Origin: Streptosporangiales bacterium | GTDB taxonomy: Bacteria > Actinomycetota > Actinomycetes > Streptosporangiales > WHST01 | DNA length: 64,000 nucleotides | Assembly (NCBI GenBank): GCA_009379825.1 | Contig: WHTA01000007.1 | Span: 62,001 to 126,000, forward strand | Direction: 5' to 3' | Shown: positions 4,598 to 64,000 of the stretch, in pieces | Position numbering within the stretch: the first letter of the stretch is position 1 | How the letters are laid out: each line of letters starts with the position of its first letter | Program-made: the position numbers and the translations under genes | The notes under the pieces: model-generated | Told to the model about the DNA's origin: nothing | Database searches by the model: none | The model's input: the letters and a program-made list of their open reading frames with translations, nothing else

Positions 4598-4656
4598 GCG
4601 CCCAACACGCGGGTCGTGCCACGGTTTAACTCATATGTGAGATATCTTCTCCTCTC

Positions 4657-52861: not shown

Positions 52862-53082
52862 CCGTCCAGTGGGCGGGTGTTAGAACCCATGAAGTGGTGT
52901 ACGAACCCAGATGCGGAAGGCGCCTGCCCTTCGCTGGCTAGTACCACCACTGTCCGCGGACATGGAATCCGACCGGCCCTGTGTGACGTGCGAACGCAGT
53001 ATCTGTTGCCGGTATGTAGGTCCTGGCGTACGAGAGGCACGAGACATAGATTGTTGTCTATGGCGACTCTCTGTGGTGGTCG
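52862..53082. other. leader region of the PiT gene
   Basis: No gene is apparent. Composition is less GC-biased than the neighbours. Its right end holds the CATAGA-N6-TCTATG palindrome described separately. Together with 52601-52744, which also lacks a recognisable gene, it forms the junction between transposase scars and the arsenic/phosphate genes. Confidence 0.45.
53045..53062. promoter_or_regulatory. ArsR-type operator CATAGA-N6-TCTATG before PiT
   Basis: Perfect palindrome with 6-bp arms and spacer TTGTTG, 20 bp before the GTG start. ATAGA..TCTAT-type dyads are typical of ArsR/SmtB repressors. The half-site GTCTATG recurs at the other island promoters. Confidence 0.65.
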
Positions 53083-54084
53083 GTGACCTGGATGCAGTGG
53101 GTGGAACTGGCGGTCATCGTCGCGGTGGCGTTGGTGTTCGACTTCACCAACGGGTTCCATGACGCGGCGAACGCGATCGCGACCAGCGTCTCGACGCGTG
53201 CGCTCACGCCGCGGGTGGCGTTGGCGCTGGGGGCGGTGATGAACTTCGTCGGCGCGTTACTCGGTACGGGTGTCGCGGTGACGGTGGGCAGCGGGATCAT
53301 CGCCACGCCGGCGACGGAGGGTGGTCTGGTCGTGGTGCTGGCCGCACTGGTTGGTGCGATCGCGTGGAACATCTTGACGTGGGCGTTCGGGCTGCCGTCG
53401 TCGTCCTCGCACGCGCTCATCGGCGGCCTGGTCGGCGCGGCGTTGGCGTCCGGCACGCTGGTGCACTGGGCCGGGGTGGGGGAGAAGGTGGTCATCCCGA
53501 TGATCCTCTCCCCGCTGGTCGGCTTCACCCTCGCGTTCGGCGTGATGCTCGCCATCATGTGGATCTTCCGCAATCGTGCGCCTGGCCCGGTGGGTCGCGG
53601 GTTCCGGTTCGCGCAGGCGATCTCGGCGGCGGCGATGGCGCTCGGGCACGGTCTTCAGGATGCGCAGAAGACGATGGGCGTGATCGTGCTCGCGCTCGTC
53701 ACCGTCGGTTTGCAGGACGACTTCCACGTGCCGCTGTGGGTCATCATCTCGGTTGCGGTCGCCCTCGCGGCCGGCACGTGGGCAGGTGGCTGGCGGATCA
53801 TGCGCACGCTCGGCCGCCGCATCGTGCACCTGGAGCCGCCGCAGGGCTTCGCCGCGGAGATGAGTGGAGCAGCTGTGCTCTACACGACGGCGTTCGTGTT
53901 CAGTGTCCCGGTCTCGACCACGCACACCATCACCTCGGCGATCGCTGGCGCGGGCGCGACGAGGCGGTTGTCCGCGGTCCGGTGGGGTGTGGCGGGCAAC
54001 ATCCTGACCGCGTGGGTGTGCACGCTCCCCGGTGCCGGCGGTGTGGCCGCGGTCTGTTACCTCCTTCTCGACCTGGTGGTCTGA
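53083..54084 (+). CDS. PiT-family inorganic phosphate transporter
   Basis: 333 residues from GTG 53083 (ATG 53092 is an alternative), about ten membrane helices. The family signature occurs twice: FDFTNGFHDAANAIATSVSTRALTP near the start, and ALGHGLQDAQKTMG in the second half, along with STTHTITSAIAGAGATRR. PiT carriers are metal-phosphate:H+ symporters of moderate affinity and generally also admit arsenate. Beside ars genes and behind an ArsR-type operator, it might supply phosphate when arsenate blocks other routes, or export; direction cannot be read. Confidence 0.92.
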   Translation: MTWMQWVELAVIVAVALVFDFTNGFHDAANAIATSVSTRALTPRVALALGAVMNFVGALLGTGVAVTVGSGIIATPATEGGLVVVLAALVGAIAWNILTWAFGLPSSSSHALIGGLVGAALASGTLVHWAGVGEKVVIPMILSPLVGFTLAFGVMLAIMWIFRNRAPGPVGRGFRFAQAISAAAMALGHGLQDAQKTMGVIVLALVTVGLQDDFHVPLWVIISVAVALAAGTWAGGWRIMRTLGRRIVHLEPPQGFAAEMSGAAVLYTTAFVFSVPVSTTHTITSAIAGAGATRRLSAVRWGVAGNILTAWVCTLPGAGGVAAVCYLLLDLVV

Positions 54085-54668
54085 TGAACGCCATTCCGGT
54101 ACTTCGACCAGGGACGCATCTGCATCCCAGTGATGGCATGTGTCTGACCGAGTGGGTGTCGGTCTTGGCCGGTGAGCCGTTCACCGACGAACCTCTTTGC
54201 ATGGAGCCGGTGCTGGCCACGCTGGCGCGCCTTGTCAACGACGACCTCGACGATGCGACACGACAGGGTCTCGTCGACGTCGCGCCAAGACTGGTCGGTG
54301 CGACAGGGGACGGGCCGTGGTCGGCGTCGGATGTGGTGGCCGCTGCCCTTGGTCGGATGGTGCCGGTATCGGGCCTGCCCAACCGTCGCCGGCGAAACCT
54401 CGACCGGCATCTGCGCCGTGCCTCGCGCCGTTCGACTCGCCTACGACGTCGCACAGGCCACGCGGTCGCGCGCCGAGTATCGACATGGTTGTACCGGCGA
54501 GGACCGGCGAACGCTGCGCTGGCGAGCGCAGTGCACAGCGCCCGGCTGCTCGCCGTGGTACATCGGGAAGCGCTGCTGTCGGCGATGCTGCATGCGGGGC
54601 TTGGAGCACTGGTGCCACCTGACCGGAATGGACCGGTGCCCGCGTCATCCCGGCACGTTCGCCACTGA
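54084..54668 (+). CDS. hypothetical protein linked to PiT
   Basis: 194 residues; ATG 54084 overlaps the PiT stop (TGATG). The first 75 residues (MCLTEWVSVLAGEPFTDEPLCMEPVLATLARLVND) recur in actinobacterial hypothetical proteins of the type 'C..E.VS.LAGE..SD.P.C..PV...L.R..N'. The rest is Arg-rich with an Ala/Leu helix (NAALASAVHSARLLAVVHREALLSAMLHAGLGAL). The Arg-rich middle could hide a frameshift. The end overlaps the convergent flavoprotein gene by 24 bp. Function unknown. Confidence 0.55.
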   Translation: MNAIPVLRPGTHLHPSDGMCLTEWVSVLAGEPFTDEPLCMEPVLATLARLVNDDLDDATRQGLVDVAPRLVGATGDGPWSASDVVAAALGRMVPVSGLPNRRRRNLDRHLRRASRRSTRLRRRTGHAVARRVSTWLYRRGPANAALASAVHSARLLAVVHREALLSAMLHAGLGALVPPDRNGPVPASSRHVRH

Positions 54669-56051
54669 CTCCGGCAGTGCAGCCTCGGTCTCGAGGTGGT
54701 CGCGGACCCAGGCTTGGGTGGCCATCTGGACGGCGTCCCACGGGCTGCCCAGGGGCGGGGTGTAGGAGAGGTCCAGCTCGGCGACCGTGTCGACGTCCAG
54801 GCCGGCGAACAAGGCGGTGGCGAATGTGTCGATGCGCTTGGCTACCGCGGTGGGAATGGGGCCGACGAGTTGGGCGCCGAGCAGCTTGCCCGTCTCGGCG
54901 TCGCCCGTGACACGTGCGGTGATGGGCTGCGCCCCGGGGTAATAGGCCTTGTGGTCGTCGGCGACGCTGCCCACCGTGACGGGTGCAAAGCCCACCGTAC
55001 GGGCCTCGTGGTCGCGTAGCCCGGTGCGGGCGACGGCGAGGTCGAAGACCTTCACCACCTGGGTGCCGAGGCTGCCGGCGAACGCGCGGTCGCCACCGAC
55101 GGCGTTCTCGCCGGCGACCCGACCCTGTTTGTGCGCGGTAGTCCCCAGCGGCAGGTACGTCGTACCCAGCAGTCGGTGATGGGTGACCACACAATCGCCG
55201 GCAGCGTAGACGTCCGGCACCCCGGTGCGCATGTGCTCGTCCACGACGATCGCGCCGCGGACGTCGAGCGAGACACCGGCGGTCTCGGCCAGTGCGGTGT
55301 CCGGCGCGACGCCGCCGACGACGAGAACGAGGTCGACGTCACGGGTGAAGTAGTGGTCACCGTCGACGTGCAGCCGGTTACCTTCTCTGGTGATGTCCGT
55401 GACGCGGGTTCCGGTCACGACGTCGACGCCGTGACCCGTGAGTTCGGCACACACCAGCGCGCCCAGTTCCGGGTCCACGGTGGGTAGGACCTCGGGGAGC
55501 TGTTCGACTTGGGTGACCCGGATTCCCCGCGCGGTGAGCGCCTCGGCCATCTCCAACCCGATGTAGCCCGCACCGACGACCAACGCGGTGCGTGGCTGGC
55601 GGCGTTCGAGCGACTCCATCACGGCGAACGTGTCGCCCATGGTGTGCAGGACGTGTACCCCGTCGGCGGGGCCGAGTTCGGCGAGTCCACGGATCGGTGG
55701 CCGCACTGGGATGGCGCCGGTGCCGATGACCAACTGGTCGTAGCCGAGCAACTGCTCGTCGCCGGCTGGGCCGGTCACGGTCACCGTCTTGGCGGCAGAG
55801 TCGATGCGGTGTGCCGTGTGGTCCAGTAGCAGGTCGAGTCCGGCGTTCTCCAGGTCGTGCCGGGTGCGGTGGGCGAGGTGCCGCCAGTCCGTGACGTCGC
55901 CGGAGACGTAGTACGGGATGCCGCAGATCGAGAAGTTCGGGTACGCGTCGGCGACCACCAGCGTGGTCTCCATGCTCGGGTCGAGTTCGCGGGCGCGTAG
56001 CCCGGCGCTGATTCCTGCGTCGCTACCGCCAATGATGACCAGGCGTGTCAT
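54645..56051 (-). CDS. CoA-disulfide reductase-like FAD/NAD(P)-dependent flavoprotein
   Basis: 468 residues. FAD motif IIGGSDAGISAG, single redox Cys C43 in NFSICGIPYY (the exact position of the active Cys in CoA disulfide reductase), NAD(P) motif VVGAGYIGLEMAE, and FAD/C-terminal segment DVYAAGDCV followed by a dimerisation domain ending LDLSYTPPLGSPWDAV. One-Cys members reduce CoA or other low-molecular-weight disulfides, persulfides or peroxides. It follows the arsR-arsC fusion by 31 bp, so it may regenerate the thiol used in arsenate reduction or handle thiol-As adducts. Recurrent in actinobacterial ars operons. Confidence 0.88.
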   Translation of the reverse strand: MTRLVIIGGSDAGISAGLRARELDPSMETTLVVADAYPNFSICGIPYYVSGDVTDWRHLAHRTRHDLENAGLDLLLDHTAHRIDSAAKTVTVTGPAGDEQLLGYDQLVIGTGAIPVRPPIRGLAELGPADGVHVLHTMGDTFAVMESLERRQPRTALVVGAGYIGLEMAEALTARGIRVTQVEQLPEVLPTVDPELGALVCAELTGHGVDVVTGTRVTDITREGNRLHVDGDHYFTRDVDLVLVVGGVAPDTALAETAGVSLDVRGAIVVDEHMRTGVPDVYAAGDCVVTHHRLLGTTYLPLGTTAHKQGRVAGENAVGGDRAFAGSLGTQVVKVFDLAVARTGLRDHEARTVGFAPVTVGSVADDHKAYYPGAQPITARVTGDAETGKLLGAQLVGPIPTAVAKRIDTFATALFAGLDVDTVAELDLSYTPPLGSPWDAVQMATQAWVRDHLETEAALPESVANVPG

Positions 56052-56082
56052 GAGGCCTTCCTAGGTGACGTTCACTGCATGT

Positions 56083-57069
56083 TCACGCCGTCGTGCCGAG
56101 CAGGTCGGTCGCCAGCTGATGGACGCGTTCGTCGATGGCGTCGCGGATCTTACGGACACGGTCCAGCGGCTGGCCGATCGGGTCGGGGATCGGCCAGTCG
56201 AGATAGCGCCTGCCGGGGAAGACGGGGCAGGCGTCACCGCAGCCCATGGTGATGACGTAGTCGGCAGCGCGAACGACCTCGTCGGTGAGTGGCTTGGGGA
56301 ACTCCCGACCCATGTGGACGCCGACCTCGTCCATCACCTGCCAGACTGTCTCGGCCAACTCGCTGACGGGGGTCGAGCCGGCCGACCGGACGTGCACGCG
56401 GTCACCGGCGACCTGCTCGAGCAGGCCGGCGGCCATCTGGGAGCGACCGGCGTTCTGGACGCAGACGAACAGCACTTCAGGGCAGGTGTTGGGACGTTGG
56501 CCCTCGGCTTGGGCGAGTGCAGCCAGTCGTTCGGCGGCGAAGTTCGCCGTCAGTGAGGGCAGGAAACGCCGGATCCGGGCCCGGGACGCCAGCATCTCGT
56601 AGCTCTCGTGCACATATCTGGCCACCGTCTCGGGCGAGAACACCCCAGCGAAACGACTAGCGAGCTGGTCAGCGATCCGGTCGAGTACCGCGCGGTGCAG
56701 CGGGTCCGCCGGTTCGATCGTGCGCACTCTGGCCGGGTCGAGTTGGTTCGCCTCCGTGACTGACGGCGCGATGAGGGTGGCGTAGTGCGCAAGCGCGCGG
56801 TGGGTAGCACGGTAGTACACCCCGGTGCCGTGACGTTCTCGCTCCAGGAGGCCCGCCCGGCACAGCACCGTCAAGTGATGGGTGACGGTGGGGCCGGTCA
56901 GCTCGAATGCGTCGGCGAGCTCGCCGCGGCGGATCTCGCCGGATGGATGTGTCAGCACCAAGCTGAGGATCCGTAGCCGGACCGGATCCGCCAATGCCCG
57001 CATCTGCGCCGACCGCTCCTCGGCGGAGGCACGGTCCAGCGGTGGACCCGCGGCACCAGAGGTTAGCAT
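56083..57069 (-). CDS. ArsR-ArsC fusion: regulator plus low-molecular-weight-phosphatase-type arsenate reductase
   Basis: 328 residues in three parts. Residues 18-100: ArsR winged helix (ALADPVRLRIL, FELTGPTVTHHLTVLCRAGLL), lacking the CxC metal motif, with only C70. Residues about 122-185: a three-helix segment found before ArsC in actinobacteria. Residues 198-325: arsenate reductase with P-loop C203-VQNAGRS, C277 and C281 in MGCGDACP, and the Asp of WPIPDP. It reduces arsenate to arsenite with thiol cofactors, probably mycothiol. The ATG lies within a repeat element (57067-57094), suggesting autoregulation. First gene of a two-gene operon. Confidence 0.92.
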   Translation of the reverse strand: MLTSGAAGPPLDRASAEERSAQMRALADPVRLRILSLVLTHPSGEIRRGELADAFELTGPTVTHHLTVLCRAGLLERERHGTGVYYRATHRALAHYATLIAPSVTEANQLDPARVRTIEPADPLHRAVLDRIADQLASRFAGVFSPETVARYVHESYEMLASRARIRRFLPSLTANFAAERLAALAQAEGQRPNTCPEVLFVCVQNAGRSQMAAGLLEQVAGDRVHVRSAGSTPVSELAETVWQVMDEVGVHMGREFPKPLTDEVVRAADYVITMGCGDACPVFPGRRYLDWPIPDPIGQPLDRVRKIRDAIDERVHQLATDLLGTTA

Positions 57070-57094
57070 ACGTCTATGTTGACGGACGTCTATG
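57067..57094. promoter_or_regulatory. two ACGTCTATG repeats over the arsR-arsC start
   Basis: ACGTCTATG at 57070-57078 and 57086-57094, exactly 16 bp apart; the first forms the dyad CATA-CGTC-TATG (57067-57078), which includes the start codon on the minus strand. On that strand CATAGACG doubles as a possible -10 region. Probable autoregulatory site. Confidence 0.55.
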
Positions 57095-57195
57095 CGCCTC
57101 GTCGAGTCCGGGCGACGAGGTTCACCTGGTGTTCACCTGCAAGTTCGCGATGTCTACCGTCGGATCGGCAGATTTCGATGTGACGTGGCGCCGCG

Positions 57196-57576
57196 TCAGG
57201 TGCACGGCCTACGCAGCGTCTGTGCTCGTTGTGCCTGCACGGCCATTCCTGCGATGGCTGCGATCAGCGTGTTGAGCGCTTCGGGACGCAGCCGGTAGTA
57301 GGTGTACCGACCGTGGGGCTCGGCGGCAACAAAGCCGGATTCACGGAGGATACGCAGGTGATGACTGATCGTGGACTGCCGTGCGCCCGTTTCCTCCACG
57401 AGGTGGCAGGTGCACATCTGTTCGTCGGCAAGCAACCGCACGATCTTGGCGCGAAGTGGGTCGCCGAAGAGCCGCACGGTTGCCTCGGCGATATCGGGGT
57501 CGGCGTCCGTGGTATGTCCGACTTCGCCTTCATCGGCAAGTGCGGTTGATGAAGTCGACATATTTTGATCAGACAC
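57196..57576 (-). CDS. arsR: ArsR-family metalloregulator with CxC site
   Basis: 126 residues from GTG 57576 (ATG 57561 also possible). Winged helix with ATVRLFGDPLRAKIVRLLADEQMCTCHLVEE in the metal-binding helix; C55 and C57 form the CxC arsenite site of the classic ELCVCDL type. Recognition helix: GARQSTISHHLRILRESG. It dissociates from DNA on binding As(III)/Sb(III). Divergent from arsB, and therefore its probable repressor. The 107 bp after its stop separate it from the arsR-arsC promoter. Confidence 0.92.
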   Translation of the reverse strand: MSDQNMSTSSTALADEGEVGHTTDADPDIAEATVRLFGDPLRAKIVRLLADEQMCTCHLVEETGARQSTISHHLRILRESGFVAAEPHGRYTYYRLRPEALNTLIAAIAGMAVQAQRAQTLRRPCT

Positions 57577-57691
57577 CGAGTACTGGTTCCCGTCAAGGCC
57601 CCAGATGATCGCTGTCTAGCCGGATTTCCATGGTTTTCAGGTTCTTGTTCCGCCGCAGGCGATCGGAGGTTGTGTAGCTCACATCAATTCT

Positions 57692-57717
57692 CATAGATTC
57701 ATCAGCTTCTATCGATG
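57692..57717. promoter_or_regulatory. imperfect dyad before arsB (CATAGAT-N12-ATCGATG)
   Basis: Arms CATAGAT (57692-57698) and ATCGATG (57711-57717) pair at six of seven positions; ATAGA-N10-TCTAT (57693-57697, 57708-57712) is a second symmetric reading. It lies between the divergent arsR and arsB and differs in spacing from the N6 sites, so it may belong to the CxC-type ArsR. Confidence 0.45.
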
Positions 57718-57773
57718 TAGTGTCGAGAGAGAGGATCGCGCCGAGCGAACGAGCACAGGAGGCCGCCAACGCC

Positions 57774-59186
57774 ATGACCGTGGCAGCAATCCTCATCTTC
57801 GCGGCGACGCTCACTCTGGTGATCTGGCAGCCCAAGGGACTGGGCATCGGCTGGAGCGCCCTCGGCGGCGCGGTGGTCGCTCTGCTGACGACGGTGGTGC
57901 ACCTCTCCGACGTGCCTACCGTCGTGGGTATCGTGTGGAATGCGACGCTGGCGTTCGTCGCGGTGATCATCATCTCTCTGGTGCTCGACGAGTGTGGTTT
58001 CTTTGAGTGGGCCGCCCTGCACGTCGCGCGCTGGGGCCGTGGCCGCGGGCGTGCGCTGTTCGTGTTGATCGTCCTGTTGGGGGCGGCGATCGCCGCAGTG
58101 TTCGCCAACGATGGTGCCGCCTTGATCCTCACCCCGATCGTCATGCAGATCATGCTCGCCCTGCGGTTCTCACCGAAGGCATCGCTTGGGTTCGTCATGG
58201 CGACCGGGTTCATCAGCGACACCGGTAGCCTGCCGCTGGTCGTGTCCAACCTCGTCAACATCGTCTCCGCCGACTTCTTCGGCATTGGCTTCGCCCGCTT
58301 CGCCGCGGTCATGGTCCCCGTGGGGATCGTCTCCGTCGTAGCCAGCCTGGCCATGTTGGTGCTCTATTTCCGCCGCTCGATCCCGAAGACCTACGACGTG
58401 ACCGCCCTGCGGCGACCGGCGGATGCGATCACCGACCGGTTGACCTTCCGCGCCGGGTGGGTCGTGCTCGTGTTGCTGTTGGTCGGCTACTTCGGCGCGG
58501 ACCCAGTGGGCGTGCCGCTGTCCGTGGTGGCCGGAGGCGGTGCGCTGATCTTGATCGCCGTCGCGGCACGCAGGCCCGCCTTCCTGTTCCCGCAGCTGAC
58601 CCGCCGTCCTGCACCGGTGATGGTGAGGGCGGAGCAAGCCGCGAGCGCGCCGGAAGCTTCGGCCGCTGACGACCACCGTCTGACCGCGCCGCGGCAGATC
58701 CCCGTAGGCAAGGTCATCAGGGAAGCGCCGTGGCAGATCGTGCTGTTCAGCATCGGTATGTACCTCGTCGTATACGGCCTCCGCAACCAGGGGCTCACCG
58801 GTGAGCTGGCCAAGGTCTTCGGCTTCTTCGCCGACCACGGCGACCTCACTGCGGCTCTCGGCACCGGCTACGTGGTCGCCGGGCTCTCGTCAATCATGAA
58901 CAACATGCCCACGGTGCTCATCGCCGCACTGGCCATCGACGCGGTCGGTGCCACCGGGCTCACGCACGAGGCGATGGTCTACGCCAACGTCATCGGCTCC
59001 GACCTCGGCCCGAAGATCACCCCCATCGGCAGCCTGGCTACCCTGCTGTGGCTGCATGTACTAGATCGCAAGGGCATGCACATCGGATGGGGTCGTTACT
59101 TCCGCACCGGCATCGTGCTCACCATCCCGGTCCTGCTGGTCACCCTGCTCGCCCTTGCCGGCTGGCTCAGCGTCATCGGCGCCTGA
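57774..59186 (+). CDS. arsB: ArsB-type arsenite efflux permease
   Basis: 470 residues from ATG 57774, AGGAGG eleven bases upstream. About twelve helices. ArsB/NhaD superfamily motifs: [41 protein letters not shown], and in the second half [16 protein letters not shown] and [22 protein letters not shown] hydrophilic loop near 285-325 separates the halves. Exports As(III)/Sb(III) by H+ antiport, or with an ArsA ATPase, which is not seen here. Divergent from the CxC-type arsR and followed by the ArsO-like gene. Confidence 0.93.
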
Positions 59187-59199
59187 GCGGGCGGCAGAC

Positions 59200-60267
59200 G
59201 TGGCCGGGACATCGGACGTGGTCGTCATCGGCGGCGGTCAGGCGGGACTTGCCGCCGGCTACTACCTCCGCCGCGCCCGGGTGAGCTTCGACATCCTGGA
59301 CGCGCACGACCGGCCGGGAGGTGCGTGGCAACACGGCTGGGACTCGCTGCAGTTGTTCTCCCCAGCCGAGTACAGTCCACTGCCTGGCTGGTGGATGCCG
59401 CACCAAGAAGGCGAGACGTTCCCCACCGCCGGGCATGTCGTCCGCTACCTCGGCACGTACGAGCAACGGTACGAGCTCCCGATCCACCGGCCGGTCCAGG
59501 CGCGAGGCGTCCGTGCCGCCGGCCCACTCCTGGCGGTCGAGACCGACCGAGGTACCTGGCGGGCCAAGATCGTCATCAGTGCCACCGGCACCTGGGATAC
59601 GCCCTACCTCCCCGAGTACCCAGGTAGCCACGACTTCGTGGGCCGCCAGCTGCACACCGTGTCGTACTCCTCCCCCGAGCCGTTCCACGGTCAGCGCGTG
59701 GTGATCGTGGGGGGAGGTAACTCCGCAGCCCAGATCCTGGCCGAGGTCTCCACTGTGGCCGACACCCTCTGGGTCACCCAACGTCCACCTCGCTTCATGC
59801 CCGATGACGTCGACGGCCGCATCCTGTTCGACGTCGCCACCCGGCGAGAGGCCACACAACGCGATGGCGCCGACACCGCCGGTGTAGGCGGGCTGGGGGA
59901 CATCGTCATGGTGCCCAGCGTGCTCGACGCCCGCGAGCGCGGCGTCCTACACGCGCCCCCCATGTTCCAGCGGCTTACCCGCGGCGGGGTCACCTGGGAC
60001 CACGGAACCGAACACCCCTGCGACGCGATCATCTGGTGCACCGGCTTCCGCCCCAGCCTGCACCACCTCGAACCGTTGAGCCTGGAGTATCACCACGGCG
60101 TACCCAAGACCGTGGGCACACGATCGGTGGACGAACCCCGCCTGTACCTCCTCGGCTACGGAGACTGGACGGGTGCTGCCTCGGCCACCTTGATCGGTGC
60201 CGGCCGTACCGCGAAGTCAGCTGTCGCCGAGATCGCCGACCGCCTCGAGCTCATTGGCTCGGAGTGA
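59200..60267 (+). CDS. ArsO-like flavin-dependent monooxygenase
   Basis: 355 residues from GTG 59200; a longer frame from TTG 59155 overlaps arsB. FAD motif VVVIGGGQAGLAAGYYLRR, followed by the conserved RPGGAWQHGWDSLQLFSPAEYSPLPGW, and NADPH motif VIVGGGNSAAQIL; C-terminal GYGDWTGAASATLIGAGRTAK. This flavoprotein monooxygenase type recurs in ars operons as ArsO; its substrate is unsettled and may be an organoarsenical or a thiol-bound arsenic. Fourteen bases after arsB, so co-transcribed. Convergent with the third arsR gene. Confidence 0.85.
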   Translation: MAGTSDVVVIGGGQAGLAAGYYLRRARVSFDILDAHDRPGGAWQHGWDSLQLFSPAEYSPLPGWWMPHQEGETFPTAGHVVRYLGTYEQRYELPIHRPVQARGVRAAGPLLAVETDRGTWRAKIVISATGTWDTPYLPEYPGSHDFVGRQLHTVSYSSPEPFHGQRVVIVGGGNSAAQILAEVSTVADTLWVTQRPPRFMPDDVDGRILFDVATRREATQRDGADTAGVGGLGDIVMVPSVLDARERGVLHAPPMFQRLTRGGVTWDHGTEHPCDAIIWCTGFRPSLHHLEPLSLEYHHGVPKTVGTRSVDEPRLYLLGYGDWTGAASATLIGAGRTAKSAVAEIADRLELIGSE

Positions 60268-60275
60268 GGGCGAAC

Positions 60276-60608
60276 TCAGCGGAGGATGTCGGCGACGGCG
60301 GTCAGCCGGTCGGGCACGATGGAGTACCAGACCCAGCTGCCCCGCTTCTCGCGCTGGAGGATGCCGGCTTCGACGAGCATCTTGAGGTGGTGGCTGACCG
60401 TAGGTTGCCGTAGCCCCAGTGGCTCGGTCAGGTCGAGCACGCAGGCCTCCCCTGTGGGGCTGTCGCTGATCATGCTGAGCAGCTGCAGTCGAGTGGGGTC
60501 GGAGACGACCTTGAGGAGGCGGGCGAGACGTTCGGCGTCGTCGCGGTCGAGTGGCTGGGCAGACACCTGCTGGGGGGTGTCGTCCTGGCTGGCCGCGGCT
60601 CCTCGCAT
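60276..60608 (-). CDS. ArsR-family regulator with a single Cys
   Basis: 110 residues from ATG 60608; longer starts (for example 60650) are possible but would put the operator inside the gene. Winged helix: LLKVVSDPTRLQLLSMI, then SPTGEACVLDLTEPLGL with only C56 where CxC proteins have two, and RQPTVSHHLKMLVEAGIL. Its sensing site must therefore differ from the CxC type, perhaps using C56 with another residue, or another ligand. Divergent from phoX. Its own start codon is part of the palindrome at 60606-60623. Confidence 0.88.
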   Translation of the reverse strand: MRGAAASQDDTPQQVSAQPLDRDDAERLARLLKVVSDPTRLQLLSMISDSPTGEACVLDLTEPLGLRQPTVSHHLKMLVEAGILQREKRGSWVWYSIVPDRLTAVADILR

Positions 60609-60623
60609 AGGGAGAAGTCTATG
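60606..60623. promoter_or_regulatory. ArsR-type operator CATAG-N8-CTATG at the third arsR start
   Basis: Reads CATAGG-GAGAAG-TCTATG, 11 of 12 symmetric bases as in the PiT site. On the minus strand TAGACT lies seven bases before the ATG and could be the -10 of a leaderless transcript, so binding would block both transcription and access to the start. Confidence 0.6.
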
Positions 60624-60759
60624 TCCTCGCCTGCCTGGCCGGATGCTCATGGTGGTTCGGCATCGATCGTTCAGCAGGCGTTGACGTCCCAGGCCGGTGG
60701 TGGTCCGGCGCTCCCGTTCTCTCCGTTCATCTGATCGACGCCGACGGGCCACCGAAACA

Positions 60760-60777
60760 CATAGATCGATATCGATC
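60760..60777. promoter_or_regulatory. dyad before phoX (CATAGATCGATATCGATC)
   Basis: Left half CATAGA equals the island half-site; GATCGATATCGATC (60764-60777) is a perfect 14-bp palindrome. It overlaps the position expected for the -35 of a promoter whose -10 could be TAGCGT (60785-60790). Weaker match to the N6 consensus than the PiT and PstS sites. Confidence 0.45.
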
Positions 60778-60835
60778 CGATTGCTAGCGTCCATCTCAGA
60801 TGTGTCGGTATGAAGGACCCCGAGAGGACCAAACG

Positions 60836-62929
60836 ATGACGTCCGCCAGCGATCGTCGATTGTTGCCCATGTCAGTCCACGGCTCGGGCCGTAGCGCGAT
60901 GACCTGCCTCTACCGGTGCGGCAACGCGTGCGCGCATCCGGCGCCGAACACCTCGGACAACCCTTACTTCGGTGATCTGGTCCGCACTGAGGTGTCCCGC
61001 CGCGGGATCCTGCGGGCCGCGGCCGCCGGAGCCGTCGTCATCGGTGCGGGCGCGGGGGTAGTCGCGGGTGCGGCTCCGGCGTCGGCGAGCCCGGGGTCAC
61101 CGTCGTCGGCTGATGGTGCGCCGACGTTCACGCCGGTTCCGCCGAACAGGTTGGACGCGGTCGTGGTCCCGGCCGGGTATGAGCACTCGGTGCTGGTGCG
61201 GTGGGGCGATCCGGTCCTGCCGGGCGCACCCGACTTCGACATCGACGGGCAGTCACCGCAGGCGCAGCGGCAGCAGTTCGGCTACAACAATGACTTCCTC
61301 GTCGTGCTGCCCCTGGATCGGCGCGGGACGCAGGGGCTGTTGGTGGTGAACCACGAGTACACCAACGAGGAGTTGATGTTCCGCGGCTACACCGACGGTG
61401 CGGCCGCCACGGTCGAGCAGATCCAGATCGCGATGGCCGCGCACGGGATGAGTGTGGTGGAGGTCGAGCGCGTCGGTGACTCCGGCGAATGGCGCGTCGT
61501 GCAGAACGGGCGGCGCCGCTGCAATCGCCGGATCACCGCCGACACCCCGATGCGGTTCACCGGTCCGGCCGCAGGCTCCGAGCTGCTCCGTACGGCCGCC
61601 GATCCGCGTGGGCTGCGAGTGCGGGGATCGCTGAACAACTGCGCCGGCGGCATGACTCCTTGGGGGACGGTGCTGTCGGGCGAGGAGAACTTCAACCAAT
61701 ACTTCGTCGGCGGCAACGGCGCACCGGCAGCGGAGAAGCCGGCGCTGGCGCGGTACGGCATCAACACCACCGACCGCTACCCCGACGGGAACCGGCACTG
61801 GGACAAGGCCGACGAACGGTTCGATCTCGCCAAGCACCCCCGTGAGGCCAACCGGTTCGGATGGGTTGTGGAGGTCGACCCGTACGATCCGGACTCGACG
61901 CCGCGCAAGCACACCGCGCTCGGCCGGCTCAAGCACGAGGGCGCCACGATCGTCGTCACCAAGGACGGCAGCGTCGCGGCCTACATGGGTGACGACGAAC
62001 GCTTCGACTACATGTACAAGTTCGTCTCCGACCGCAGGTTCCGCACCGGCAGCTCCGCCGCGGACCGTGAGCACAACCGGCAGCTGCTGGAGTCCGGCAC
62101 GTTGTACGCGGCGCAGTTCGCGTTCACCAGCGCCGACGAGATCGACGGATCGGGCTCGCTGCCCAGCGACGGCGCGTTCAACGGCACCGGCCGCTGGCTC
62201 CCACTCGCACGCGGCACGACGTCGATGATCGACGGCATGTCGATCGATGAGGTGCTGGTGCACACCAGGATCGCGGCTGACCGAGCCGGTGCGACCAAGA
62301 TGGACCGGCCGGAAGACATCGAGCCCAACCCGCACAACGGCAAGGTCTACGTCGCATTGACGAACAACTCACGACGAGGAGCAACGGGCCAGCCGCCCGC
62401 GGACGAGGCGAACCCACGCAACGACAACAAACACGGCCAGATCCTCGAGCTGGCCGAACACGGTGCAGACGCCGCCGCCGAGACCTTCAGTTGGAACCTG
62501 CCGATCGTCTGCGGCGACCCCGACGACCCGTCGACCTACTTCGCCGGCTACGACAAGTCGAAGGTCTCGCCCATCTCCTGCCCGGACAACCTCGACTTCG
62601 ACGCGCACGGCAACCTCTGGATCTCCACCGACGGCAACGCACTCACCGATCCCGCGGGGGAGAACTACAACGACGGCCTGTTCGCCGTACCTGTCGCCGG
62701 GCCGGAACGCGGCCACGTCAAGCAGTTCCTGTCCGTCCCGCCCGGGGCGGAGCAGGCGTCGGCGTACGTGCTGGACGACAACCGCAGCGTCGTCGTGTCC
62801 GTCCAGCATCCCGGCGAGATCGATGGCGCCACCGTCGACGACCCCGCATCAACCTGGCCCGACGGCGACTTCGCCCGGCCCGCCGTTGTCGTCGCCTGGC
62901 GGCCGGACGGGCGCGACCTGGGCGCCTGA
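60836..62929 (+). CDS. phoX: PhoX-family alkaline phosphatase
   Basis: 697 residues from ATG 60836, GAGAGGA eight bases upstream. The actinobacterial PhoX N-terminus (MTCLYRCGNACAHPAPNTSDNPYF) precedes a Tat signal, SRRGILRAAAAGAV at 54-67. The six-bladed propeller follows, with VVNHEYTNEE, NNCAGGMTPWGTVLSGEENFNQYF, HEGATIVVTKDG and PDNLDFDAHGNLWISTDG; these hold Ca2+/Fe3+ ligands. It releases phosphate from organic esters outside the cell. Divergent from an arsR gene, upstream of pstS, and ended by a strong hairpin. Usually a PhoP-regulated gene; here ArsR control is suggested. Confidence 0.93.
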   Translation: MTSASDRRLLPMSVHGSGRSAMTCLYRCGNACAHPAPNTSDNPYFGDLVRTEVSRRGILRAAAAGAVVIGAGAGVVAGAAPASASPGSPSSADGAPTFTPVPPNRLDAVVVPAGYEHSVLVRWGDPVLPGAPDFDIDGQSPQAQRQQFGYNNDFLVVLPLDRRGTQGLLVVNHEYTNEELMFRGYTDGAAATVEQIQIAMAAHGMSVVEVERVGDSGEWRVVQNGRRRCNRRITADTPMRFTGPAAGSELLRTAADPRGLRVRGSLNNCAGGMTPWGTVLSGEENFNQYFVGGNGAPAAEKPALARYGINTTDRYPDGNRHWDKADERFDLAKHPREANRFGWVVEVDPYDPDSTPRKHTALGRLKHEGATIVVTKDGSVAAYMGDDERFDYMYKFVSDRRFRTGSSAADREHNRQLLESGTLYAAQFAFTSADEIDGSGSLPSDGAFNGTGRWLPLARGTTSMIDGMSIDEVLVHTRIAADRAGATKMDRPEDIEPNPHNGKVYVALTNNSRRGATGQPPADEANPRNDNKHGQILELAEHGADAAAETFSWNLPIVCGDPDDPSTYFAGYDKSKVSPISCPDNLDFDAHGNLWISTDGNALTDPAGENYNDGLFAVPVAGPERGHVKQFLSVPPGAEQASAYVLDDNRSVVVSVQHPGEIDGATVDDPASTWPDGDFARPAVVVAWRPDGRDLGA

Positions 62930-62950
62930 GCGGGCCAGCGTCCACCGCCA

Positions 62951-62999
62951 GCGATGCCGCGCCCCACGTCCTCACAACAACCAAGGGGCGCGGCATCGC
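62951..62999 (+). terminator. strong hairpin terminator after phoX
   Basis: Perfect 15-bp arms at 62951-62965 and 62985-62999 (GCGATGCCGCGCCCC and its complement) with a 19-nt loop, 21 bp after the phoX stop. No T-tract follows, as is common in actinobacteria. It separates phoX from pstS. Confidence 0.75.
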
Positions 63000-63141
63000 C
63001 TTGCGTGCTCGCGTGACTACGTACGGCTACGACGTGTCACGGGACGGAACGCGTGGGGTGGGCTGGTTCGACGCAGTGCCATCGGCGTCAGCGGCGGCCG
63101 GCCGAGTTCACTCGTCGTTCAACCGGCACTCACAGTCTGGT

Positions 63142-63159
63142 AATAGACATCCATCTATG
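63142..63159. promoter_or_regulatory. ArsR-type operator AATAGA-N6-TCTATG before pstS
   Basis: ATAGA (63143-63147) and TCTAT (63154-63158) are perfect inverted arms with spacer CATCCA, the same 6-bp spacing as the PiT site. TTCAAC (63118-63123), 17 bp, TAATAG (63141-63146) is a possible promoter whose -10 the site covers. Confidence 0.6.
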
Positions 63160-63251: not shown

Positions 63252-64000
63252 GTGATCATCCGCCATTCGAAGCGGGCGCGCTTCGCGGCAGTGTTCGTGA
63301 CAGCTGGGTTGGCACTGGCCGCTTGCGGGGGCGGCGGGGGGTCGTCCGGCGGCTCCGACGACGAGGGCAAGGAGCTGTCGGGCACCGTCCTGCTGGACGG
63401 GTCGAGCACGGTGGCTCCGCTCGGTGAGGCCGCAGCCGAGCTGTTCATGGAGGAGAACCCCAACGTCAAAGTGACCGTCGGTACGGCGGGCACCGGAGGC
63501 GGGTTCGAAAAGTTCTGCGCGGGCGAGACCGACATCTCCAACGCGTCCCGCCCGATCGAGGACGACGAGACGAAGGTGTGCAAGTCCAACGCTGTCGCAC
63601 ACGAGGAGCTCGCCGTTGCCAACGACGCTCTGACTGTGATGGTGCACAAGGACAACCCGGTCTCCTGCCTGACGACCGAGCAACTCACGCAGATCTGGGA
63701 GCCGGGCTCGACGGTGAAGAACTGGAGCGAGATCGACGGTCTGGAGGAGAACTTCAACGCGCCACTCGATCTCTACGGCCCTGGCACCGACTCCGGCACC
63801 TTCGACTACTTCACCGAAGCGATCAACGGGGAAGAGGGCGTACAGCGGAAGCAGTACAACAACATCGGCGAGAACGACAACGCCGGCATCACCGGTGTGA
63901 GCGGCTCGAAGGGCGGCATGTTCTACGCCGGTTTCTCCTACTACGAGGAGAACAAGGACAAGGCGAAGGCGCTGCAGATCGACGGCGGCGACGGCTGCGT
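63252..64000 (+). CDS. pstS: PstS phosphate-binding lipoprotein (partial, runs off the window)
   Basis: The first 249 residues from GTG 63252, with AGGAGG at 63242-63247. Lipoprotein signal with lipobox ALAAC (C25) and a Gly/Ser-rich linker. Phosphate-binding loops are evident: LLDGSSTVAPL, GTAGTGGGFEKFCAGETDISNASRPI, and LYGPGTDSGTFDYF, where Ser, Thr, Asp and Arg contact phosphate. High-affinity periplasm-side receptor of the PstSCAB importer; pstCAB would be expected beyond the window. Located after phoX and an ArsR-type operator, so it may be an arsenate-discriminating paralogue expressed under arsenic stress. Confidence 0.93.
   Translation, partial: MIIRHSKRARFAAVFVTAGLALAACGGGGGSSGGSDDEGKELSGTVLLDGSSTVAPLGEAAAELFMEENPNVKVTVGTAGTGGGFEKFCAGETDISNASRPIEDDETKVCKSNAVAHEELAVANDALTVMVHKDNPVSCLTTEQLTQIWEPGSTVKNWSEIDGLEENFNAPLDLYGPGTDSGTFDYFTEAINGEEGVQRKQYNNIGENDNAGITGVSGSKGGMFYAGFSYYEENKDKAKALQIDGGDGC

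Follow-up and report, generated by a model that had tools for sequence, protein, structure and literature searches.

The window analysed here is a stretch of 64,000 nucleotides from a Streptosporangiales bacterium (GCA_009379825.1, contig WHTA01000007.1, positions 62,001 to 126,000), in which genes of phosphate acquisition lie among arsenic genes and share with them an inverted repeat, ATAGAY-N4-RTCTAT (the dyad), that is probably the operator of an ArsR-family repressor encoded at the same locus, ArsR3. One dyad, CATAGAT-N4-GTCTATG at 53045-53062, stands upstream of the gene for a PiT-type inorganic phosphate transporter of 333 amino acids (53083-54084, plus strand; Pfam PHO4, 306.8 bits, cut-off 33.7). 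Another, CATAGGG-N4-GTCTATG at 60606-60623, covers the start codon of arsR3 itself (60276-60608, minus strand), the most likely start being the ATG at 60608-60606, which matches the congeneric species. ArsR3 has 110 residues and the recognition helix GLRQPTVSHHLK, and scores above the family cut-offs of HTH_5 (54.3 bits against 22) and NF033788 (87.2 bits against 55). The dyad ATAGAT-N4-ATCGAT at 60761-60776 is upstream of the gene for a PhoX alkaline phosphatase (60800-62929, plus strand, longest frame; Pfam PF05787, 542 bits, cut-off 24), and AATAGAC-N4-ATCTATG at 63142-63159 lies between a PHO-box-like direct repeat and pstS (63252-64000, plus strand), which is cut at the window end (TIGR02136, 217.6 bits for the partial protein, cut-off 206.6). 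Beyond the window (stretch L019) the operon continues with pstC-pstA-pstB-pstB and a PhoB-like response regulator. It is a second pst operon, adjoining arsB, arsO and arsRC and apart from the other one of this genome at C50 (PstS 24% identical); another phoX (62%) is present as well. The response regulator at the end of the operon (L019:4981-5805) has a degenerate receiver (Pfam, 22.6 bits against a cut-off of 30.2) with a glycine, judged by eye, at the phospho-acceptor position, and a relative of it is found in 74 of the 104 pst stretches surveyed below.

Between the PiT and arsR3 dyads the minus strand encodes a flavin adenine dinucleotide (FAD)-dependent disulphide oxidoreductase resembling coenzyme A disulphide reductase (54645-56051, score under the NCBIfam cut-off), an ArsR-ArsC fusion of a helix-turn-helix and a low-molecular-weight phosphatase-type domain (56083-57069), and ArsR2 (57196-57576), a candidate arsenite sensor that retains the motif CTC. 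The oxidoreductase has a relative in the second species of the genus (G001), and on Streptomyces plasmids genes annotated as FAD-dependent oxidoreductases lie close to pst. The plus strand encodes, as longest frames, an ArsB arsenite efflux pump (57720-59186; NF011980, 652 bits, cut-off 457) and an ArsO-family flavin monooxygenase (59155-60267; NF040505, 549 bits, cut-off 425), whose true start is probably further in. A first-pass annotation of this DNA had listed the half-site GTCTATG or ATCTATG at 53056-53062, 57072-57078, 57088-57094, 60617-60623 and 63153-63159, and all of these were located. At the start of arsR-arsC both half-sites are present (57072-57094), although the dyad that the second one forms is weaker (57078-57093, 2 mismatches). 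The same annotation had put CATAGAT elements before phoX and arsB; phoX has its own dyad, but on the arsB side there is a half-site only (ATCTATG, 57692-57698, minus strand, in the arsR2/arsB interval), without a good dyad. Strong PHO-box-like direct repeats also precede arsR-arsC (a perfect GTTCACC-N4-GTTCACC, 57120-57137, plus strand) and the FAD oxidoreductase gene (56070-56087), hinting that arsenate reduction could also be turned on by phosphate shortage. No counterpart of the repeat at 57120-57137 was found at up to 4 mismatches on the strand shown in the G001 stretch examined, and this repeat is a weak lead.

The motif is not scattered over the genome. RTCTATG occurs eight times in the window, all within 53045-63159, against a shuffle mean of 3.31, and none of 100 shuffles reached eight. 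The stricter dyad of the first-pass annotation, MATAG-N8-CTATG, said to form at three places, gave five strand-matches at exactly three places in the window, where 0.01 were expected. Over the 6,154,701 bases of the genome these three places (PiT, arsR3 and pst) were the only ones, and the reversed control pattern gave one forward and two reverse matches. If two such places per genome are expected, which is an assumption, three within 10 kb have a probability of about 6e-9. A looser palindrome, ATMGAY-N4-RTCKAT, matched exactly at five places, all at arsenic or phosphate genes, a count that is descriptive since the form was chosen after the first matches were known: PiT, phoX (60761), pstS, C4:15926 and C151:4618. 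The C4 site ends 12 bp before an ArsR-acetyltransferase fusion that is ArsN1-like (139 bits, below the 170 cut-off), and the C151 site lies about 10 bp before the arsenite methyltransferase gene arsM (301 bits, cut-off 263); C151 has another site, with one mismatch, at 4652. At up to one mismatch the looser form had 20 places genome-wide against 4 for the reversed pattern; contexts outside the locus were examined for the arsM site, C7:17860 and the C4 and C151 stretches. The reversed pattern differs in composition and is an imperfect control; the pst operons away from arsenic genes are a better one. The dyad was not found at up to one mismatch in the stretches fetched around the other pst operon and the second phoX, nor at up to 2 mismatches in stretch L286 at a conventional arsR-ACR3-arsC operon of this genome (C10, genes named by eye).

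The sites are conserved in the genus and beyond. G001 has exact dyads before PiT and phoX, and its arsR3 dyad, with one mismatch, likewise ends on the start codon. Its pst operon, which has two sites of one mismatch each, is not orthologous to that of the window (PstC 28% identical) and the promoter layout is nevertheless similar, which argues for selection on the promoter. The family's third genome, which is 77% complete, gave no exact match. Among 345 genomes of the order the exact 18-bp dyad was found at 14 sites in 12 genomes, compared with 2 control sites, and 11 of the 14 were in ars clusters (two each in the present genome, G001 and G272, one each in G040, G043, G139, G141, G190 and G330), as judged with a gene caller that misses or merges some genes. 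The two sites of G272 precede pstS and a gene matching Pfam PhoX.

The link to arsenic genes was then measured on pst operons chosen by PstS similarity alone. PstS was searched at E <= 1e-60 in the 345 order genomes (63 matched) and in 394 genomes of the class (48 matched), two sets that overlap, and 100 pst stretches were taken, to which four preselected loci were added (the window, L118, L044 and L073). The best PstS of each stretch was used, in L234 the second of two pstS genes, and a dyad was counted if it fell between -400 and +60 with no more than one mismatch. A stretch was called ars-linked if it held a match to ACR3, ArsB, ArsO, ArsM or ArsR-acetyltransferase (>120 bits, >=38%) or to an ArsC-type phosphatase (>=42%), by which other phosphatases could count; the ACR3 assignment was confirmed on three proteins. 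The dyad was present in 13/19 ars-linked pst promoters and 2/85 others, and the reversed control in 0/104. Without the preselected loci the figures were 11/15 and 2/85 (P about 7e-10, ignoring relatedness), the 11 including G139 and G141, which had already shown the dyad in the order scan. In the two positive loci without ars genes, L188 and L200, arsR3 and phoX adjoin pst. The 15 positive loci belong to ten genera and six families, and on the PstS tree the dyad label needs eight changes, at least three of them forced by well-supported branches. One ars-linked locus without the dyad, L263, has pstS directly after arsC. The Micromonospora loci L044 and L073, also counted as lacking the dyad, have what look by eye like variant dyads flanking a PHO-like repeat at unchanged spacing, a reading that stands outside the statistics. 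The first-pass claim of one ArsR-type motif shared by PiT, phoX, pst and the arsenic genes is borne out as far as a conserved candidate operator goes, and extends to other genera.

The dyad-bearing promoters also share an architecture. In 13/15 of them, versus 1/83 of the others, two sites (up to 2 mismatches) lie at a distance of 55-57 bp. In 14/15, the window excepted, a repeat near GTTCACC-N4-GTTCAC (0-4 mismatches of 13) runs exactly up to a dyad: in 13 to the second of the pair, and in L259, whose sites are separated by 27 bp, to the first. The remaining sites have 6-11 mismatches at that offset. Among 15 loci, Markov-shuffled promoters gave such a site in 0.165 on average and in two at most over 200 rounds. 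Searched anywhere within 400 bp (up to 3 mismatches of 14), the PHO-like repeat was found in 11/15 dyad promoters (0 and 1/15 for two control patterns) and in 60/83 pst promoters not linked to ars genes (1 and 5/83 for the controls). The window pst promoter, tested for GTTCACC direct repeats of 11-bp period, has one with 2 mismatches of 14 (GTTCACT-N4-GTTCAAC, 63106-63123, plus strand) and, by eye, a possible third unit at 63128-63138. The consensus matches the Streptomyces PHO box quoted in the accessible part of PMC9019756, where pstS is a PhoP target. We had expected the PHO-like repeat to be lost from promoters with the dyad, and this was not borne out (11/15 against 60/83, P = 1). The retained repeat moved the model from replacement to dual control: a replacement of PhoP by ArsR at pst, as the first-pass annotation implies, is not evident, since a PHO-box-like repeat stands in these promoters, and the element has probably been kept and not replaced.

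The same layout was found on named plasmids, for which 10 of 37 matching records were analysed. In Cellulosimicrobium cellulans ORNL-0100 two one-mismatch dyads are separated by 56 bp and the PHO-like repeat is in register; plasmid pFRL5 of Streptomyces sp. F8 has a one- and a two-mismatch dyad at the same distance, again with the repeat in register, and a further dyad of one mismatch immediately before PiT. The stretches of pFRL3, pFRL4 and pFRL6 are near-identical, with a second dyad of 2 mismatches and the repeat in register. By the one-mismatch rule 3/7 actinobacterial ars-linked plasmids count (F8, Pseudonocardia alni and Cellulosimicrobium). In two plasmids of Rhodococcus opacus, where the stretch shows no annotated ars genes, the repeat is present and the dyad is not, and the pst promoter of the Sinorhizobium arsenic plasmid pSinA has neither. 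In three Streptomyces linear plasmids (L310, L317 and L318) the phoX-pst-ars block adjoins TnsA/TniQ-type transposition genes and may be mobile as a unit.

By association the dyad points to ArsR3 as its repressor. An ArsR3-type gene is near 14/15 dyad pst operons versus 4/89 without the dyad; counted by repressor, the dyad is in 14/18 ArsR3-bearing pst loci versus 1/86 others. In 7/15 dyad loci the first recognised gene beyond the pst response regulator is arsR3, on the same strand. The three loci with ArsR2 and without ArsR3 (L226-L228) have no dyad, which disfavours ArsR2 as the binder.

E. coli-type ArsR proteins sense arsenite through a CxC cysteine pair. The pair that in this class stands before the recognition helix reads CVL in the window ArsR3 (leucine codon 60435-60437), which has one cysteine in all, and CVC in the G001 orthologue. 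The solved structure nearest in sequence, CgArsR of Corynebacterium glutamicum (Protein Data Bank entry 6j0e, 67 bits), has a similar recognition helix; the arsenic site of CgArsR is built from other cysteines, in contrast to the single cysteine of the window protein. The set of ArsR matches (78 of 94 kept, above 75 bits) lacks CxC in 15 cases, one of which is an ArsR-ArsC domain. On a tree of 74 sequences (identical rows removed), weakly resolved by a quick method that left 36/71 inner branches open, this pattern needs eight changes, at least three forced by well-supported branches. The pst-linked ArsR proteins without CxC include those of L188, L196, L200, L249, L256 and L257, and L249 and L256 also have a CxC copy. 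When six such genomes were searched (G178, G166, G026, G450, G469 and G571), the best ArsR3 match lacked CxC in all six; five also have a CxC-bearing ArsR, mostly with different recognition helices, and the similar helix QPT[VI]SHHLK was found among these once in G166 and twice in G571. Arsenite may therefore go unsensed by the window ArsR3, and in some genomes a second, CxC-bearing copy could carry the signal. On the Cellulosimicrobium plasmid (L316:14799-15071) a cysteine-less ArsR3 adjoins arsC, with CxC-bearing ArsR copies in the same cluster.

We consider it probable that ATAGAY-N4-RTCTAT is the operator of an ArsR3-type repressor acting together with PhoP, with release by arsenite in the relatives that have CxC. 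The regulon of this genome would comprise arsR3, PiT, phoX, the second pst operon and probably arsR-arsC, with operator variants at arsM and at the arsR-arsN1-like fusion. A pair of dyads spaced by about 56 bp is usual in the pst promoters of the wider group, with a PHO-box-like repeat that ends against the second, and we infer dual PhoP/ArsR3 control as the best reading of this layout: PhoP would activate pst at phosphate shortage, ArsR3 would block it, and transcription would peak when phosphate is scarce and the repressor released. Arsenite is the most likely release signal in the group. In this strain, where one ArsR3 cysteine is lost, the signal is uncertain and arsenic triggering unproven, so that of the arsenic-triggered phosphate programme of the first-pass annotation the shared candidate operator at PiT, phoX and pst stands and the trigger is left in doubt. 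Arsenate competes with phosphate, and a dedicated high-affinity pump with an exported phosphatase would likely be of benefit by boosting phosphate supply while arsenic is expelled. The sites, with their rarity, conservation, arrangement and neighbouring genes, are what was observed; the binding, the signals, the logic of the switch and its benefit are our reading of them.

Several observations weigh against this explanation. Besides the altered cysteine motif of ArsR3, there is just one dyad in the window pst promoter, and the PHO-like repeat there does not abut it but lies about 20 bp upstream. PHO-like repeats are equally common in dyad and non-ars pst promoters, so the repeats alone do not show dual control. 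In the order scan three of the 14 sites are away from ars genes (G014, G204 and G318), and the G190 site (L126) is at no evident promoter. The loci are related and their counts not independent. L226-L228 are ars-linked (ACR3, in L226 with ArsC) and have the PstS proteins closest to that of the window, without a dyad; L235 has ArsR3 and no dyad, and L234 a dyad with no ArsR3 in reach. On plasmids, P. alni has one site near pst (1 mismatch) and P. autotrophica two with 2 mismatches, all weak, and neither Pseudonocardia plasmid has a PHO-like match at up to 3 mismatches.

Of the other explanations, one keeps the dyad as the ArsR3 operator and makes the ArsR3 of this strain a fixed or differently gated repressor that no longer senses arsenic and is released by phosphate state, redox or another ligand. 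It is possible, though rather unlikely. The CVL motif and the repeated loss of CxC speak for it, as do L188 and L200, which keep the order pst-response regulator-arsR3-phoX with none of the ars markers used here in the fetched stretch and are both without CxC. Yet the window locus is still set among arsB, arsO and arsR-arsC, the congener retains CVC so that the loss may be recent, and ArsR2 with its CTC might act in place of ArsR3. Some ArsR types, moreover, carry their cysteines elsewhere, a point against loss of sensing that is itself tempered by the single cysteine of the window protein.

It is improbable that PhoP alone controls pst and phoX as usual and that the dyads are a by-product of neighbouring arsR promoters. 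PHO-like repeats within the same promoters, the Streptomyces pstS as a PhoP target (accessible part of PMC9019756) and the divergent arsR upstream of pst in some loci, such as L186, would fit such a by-product, but the window pst is preceded by phoX and not by a divergent arsR, the spacing of paired sites is almost fixed, and of the 85 same-type pst operons without ars linkage 83 lack the dyad, as do the other pst and phoX stretches of this genome. That the motif is an AT-rich promoter element or accident to which no repressor binds is the least credible account: the half-site by itself is short and three order-scan dyads are at unrelated genes, but the genome-wide rarity, the link to ars genes, the near-fixed spacing and the spread over ten genera and six families all oppose it. 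A chance origin is rejected on the shuffles, the genome-wide rarity, the conservation at pst operons and the fixed spacing.

Control of an arsenic-island pst operon by ArsR is already published. In Agrobacterium tumefaciens 5A, ArsR1 represses pstS1/phoB1 beside ars1 and binds between them, and a separate pst2 locus is unaffected, according to the available text of PMC7965956; ArsR1 and PhoB1 are combined in one model in the part of a review at hand (PMC7533571). The likeness lies in an ars-linked repressor of a second pst/pho operon there and the same gene layout here, where such control is our inference from sequence. The differences, as far as the accessible account goes, are that strain 5A is an alphaproteobacterium, that the motif spelled out for it, TCGTCG-TGTC, differs from the present dyad, that most of its motifs are at least 100-150 nt upstream whereas here the dyads abut a PHO-like repeat, and that the targets here include PhoX and PiT, with arsR3 often following the pst operon. 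Arsenic islands with pst/phn genes have also been described, with the pst operon beside arsenic genes as here (PMC3834237); they were gathered around aioBA, with the motif search made on the aioBA upstream regions, and the main text as available does not use the words phoX, pit or Actinobacteria. In the accessible part of a study of Rhodococcus aetherivorans BCP1 the pst genes were not induced by arsenate; one reason, its authors propose, may be that the cells were not starved of phosphate (PMC6514093). A similar locus is that of pFRL5, which carries phoX, pstSCAB, a response regulator, an FAD oxidoreductase, a low-molecular-weight phosphatase, ArsR and PiT, and has dyads before pst and before PiT. 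In the literature searched we found no description of the regulation of pst or phoX on the Streptomyces linear plasmids pFRL3-pFRL6. The locus arsRBOCT of pHZ227 is reportedly another arsenic locus of a Streptomyces linear plasmid. In the open literature, subscription papers being mostly outside this coverage, we found no ArsR operator described for the promoters of pst, phoX or PiT in actinobacteria. What is new is the actinobacterial operator, the promoter layout, the PhoX and PiT targets and the cysteine-less repressors.

Two further kinds of site were noticed. In two ars clusters (L119:2-1447, minus strand, and L120:12168-13001) a molybdopterin oxidoreductase with an apparent twin-arginine signal has a dyad in front of its gene, exact in L119 and with one mismatch in L120. 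The L119 protein matched no NCBIfam model above cut-off, the best being formate-dehydrogenase- and reductase-like, and it is possibly an unrecognised arsenic-linked oxidoreductase. In seven ArsO loci (L030, L031, L040, L041, L043, L049 and L058) two or three ATCGAY-N4-RTCGAT-like sites precede ArsR-acetyltransferase fusions, and in L031 such sites also stand before arsM; they may be a sister class of operators.

Phosphate pumps also let arsenate into the cell, which makes it an open physiological question how poisoned bacteria go on feeding on phosphate. The arrangement described here, shared by a number of relatives, suggests a cell that balances arsenic against its need for phosphate before it switches on its phosphate-scavenging genes, and an operator of 16-18 bp, a recurring promoter layout and named plasmids make such an arsenic-phosphate AND gate directly testable in Actinomycetota. 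A bolder proposal, which we regard as doubtful, is that the phosphate-scavenging module (pstSCAB, the PhoB-like regulator with its degenerate receiver, and PhoX) is policed by an ArsR-family repressor of its own, a former arsenite sensor whose arsenic-binding cysteines were repeatedly lost, interlocked with PhoP and answering a non-arsenic signal in strains like this one. If this were true, one branch of the ArsR family would be devoted to supplying phosphate. The repeated loss of arsenic-binding cysteines in pst-linked ArsR3 proteins offers a natural series showing how a toxic-metal sensor might come to serve a nutrient task.

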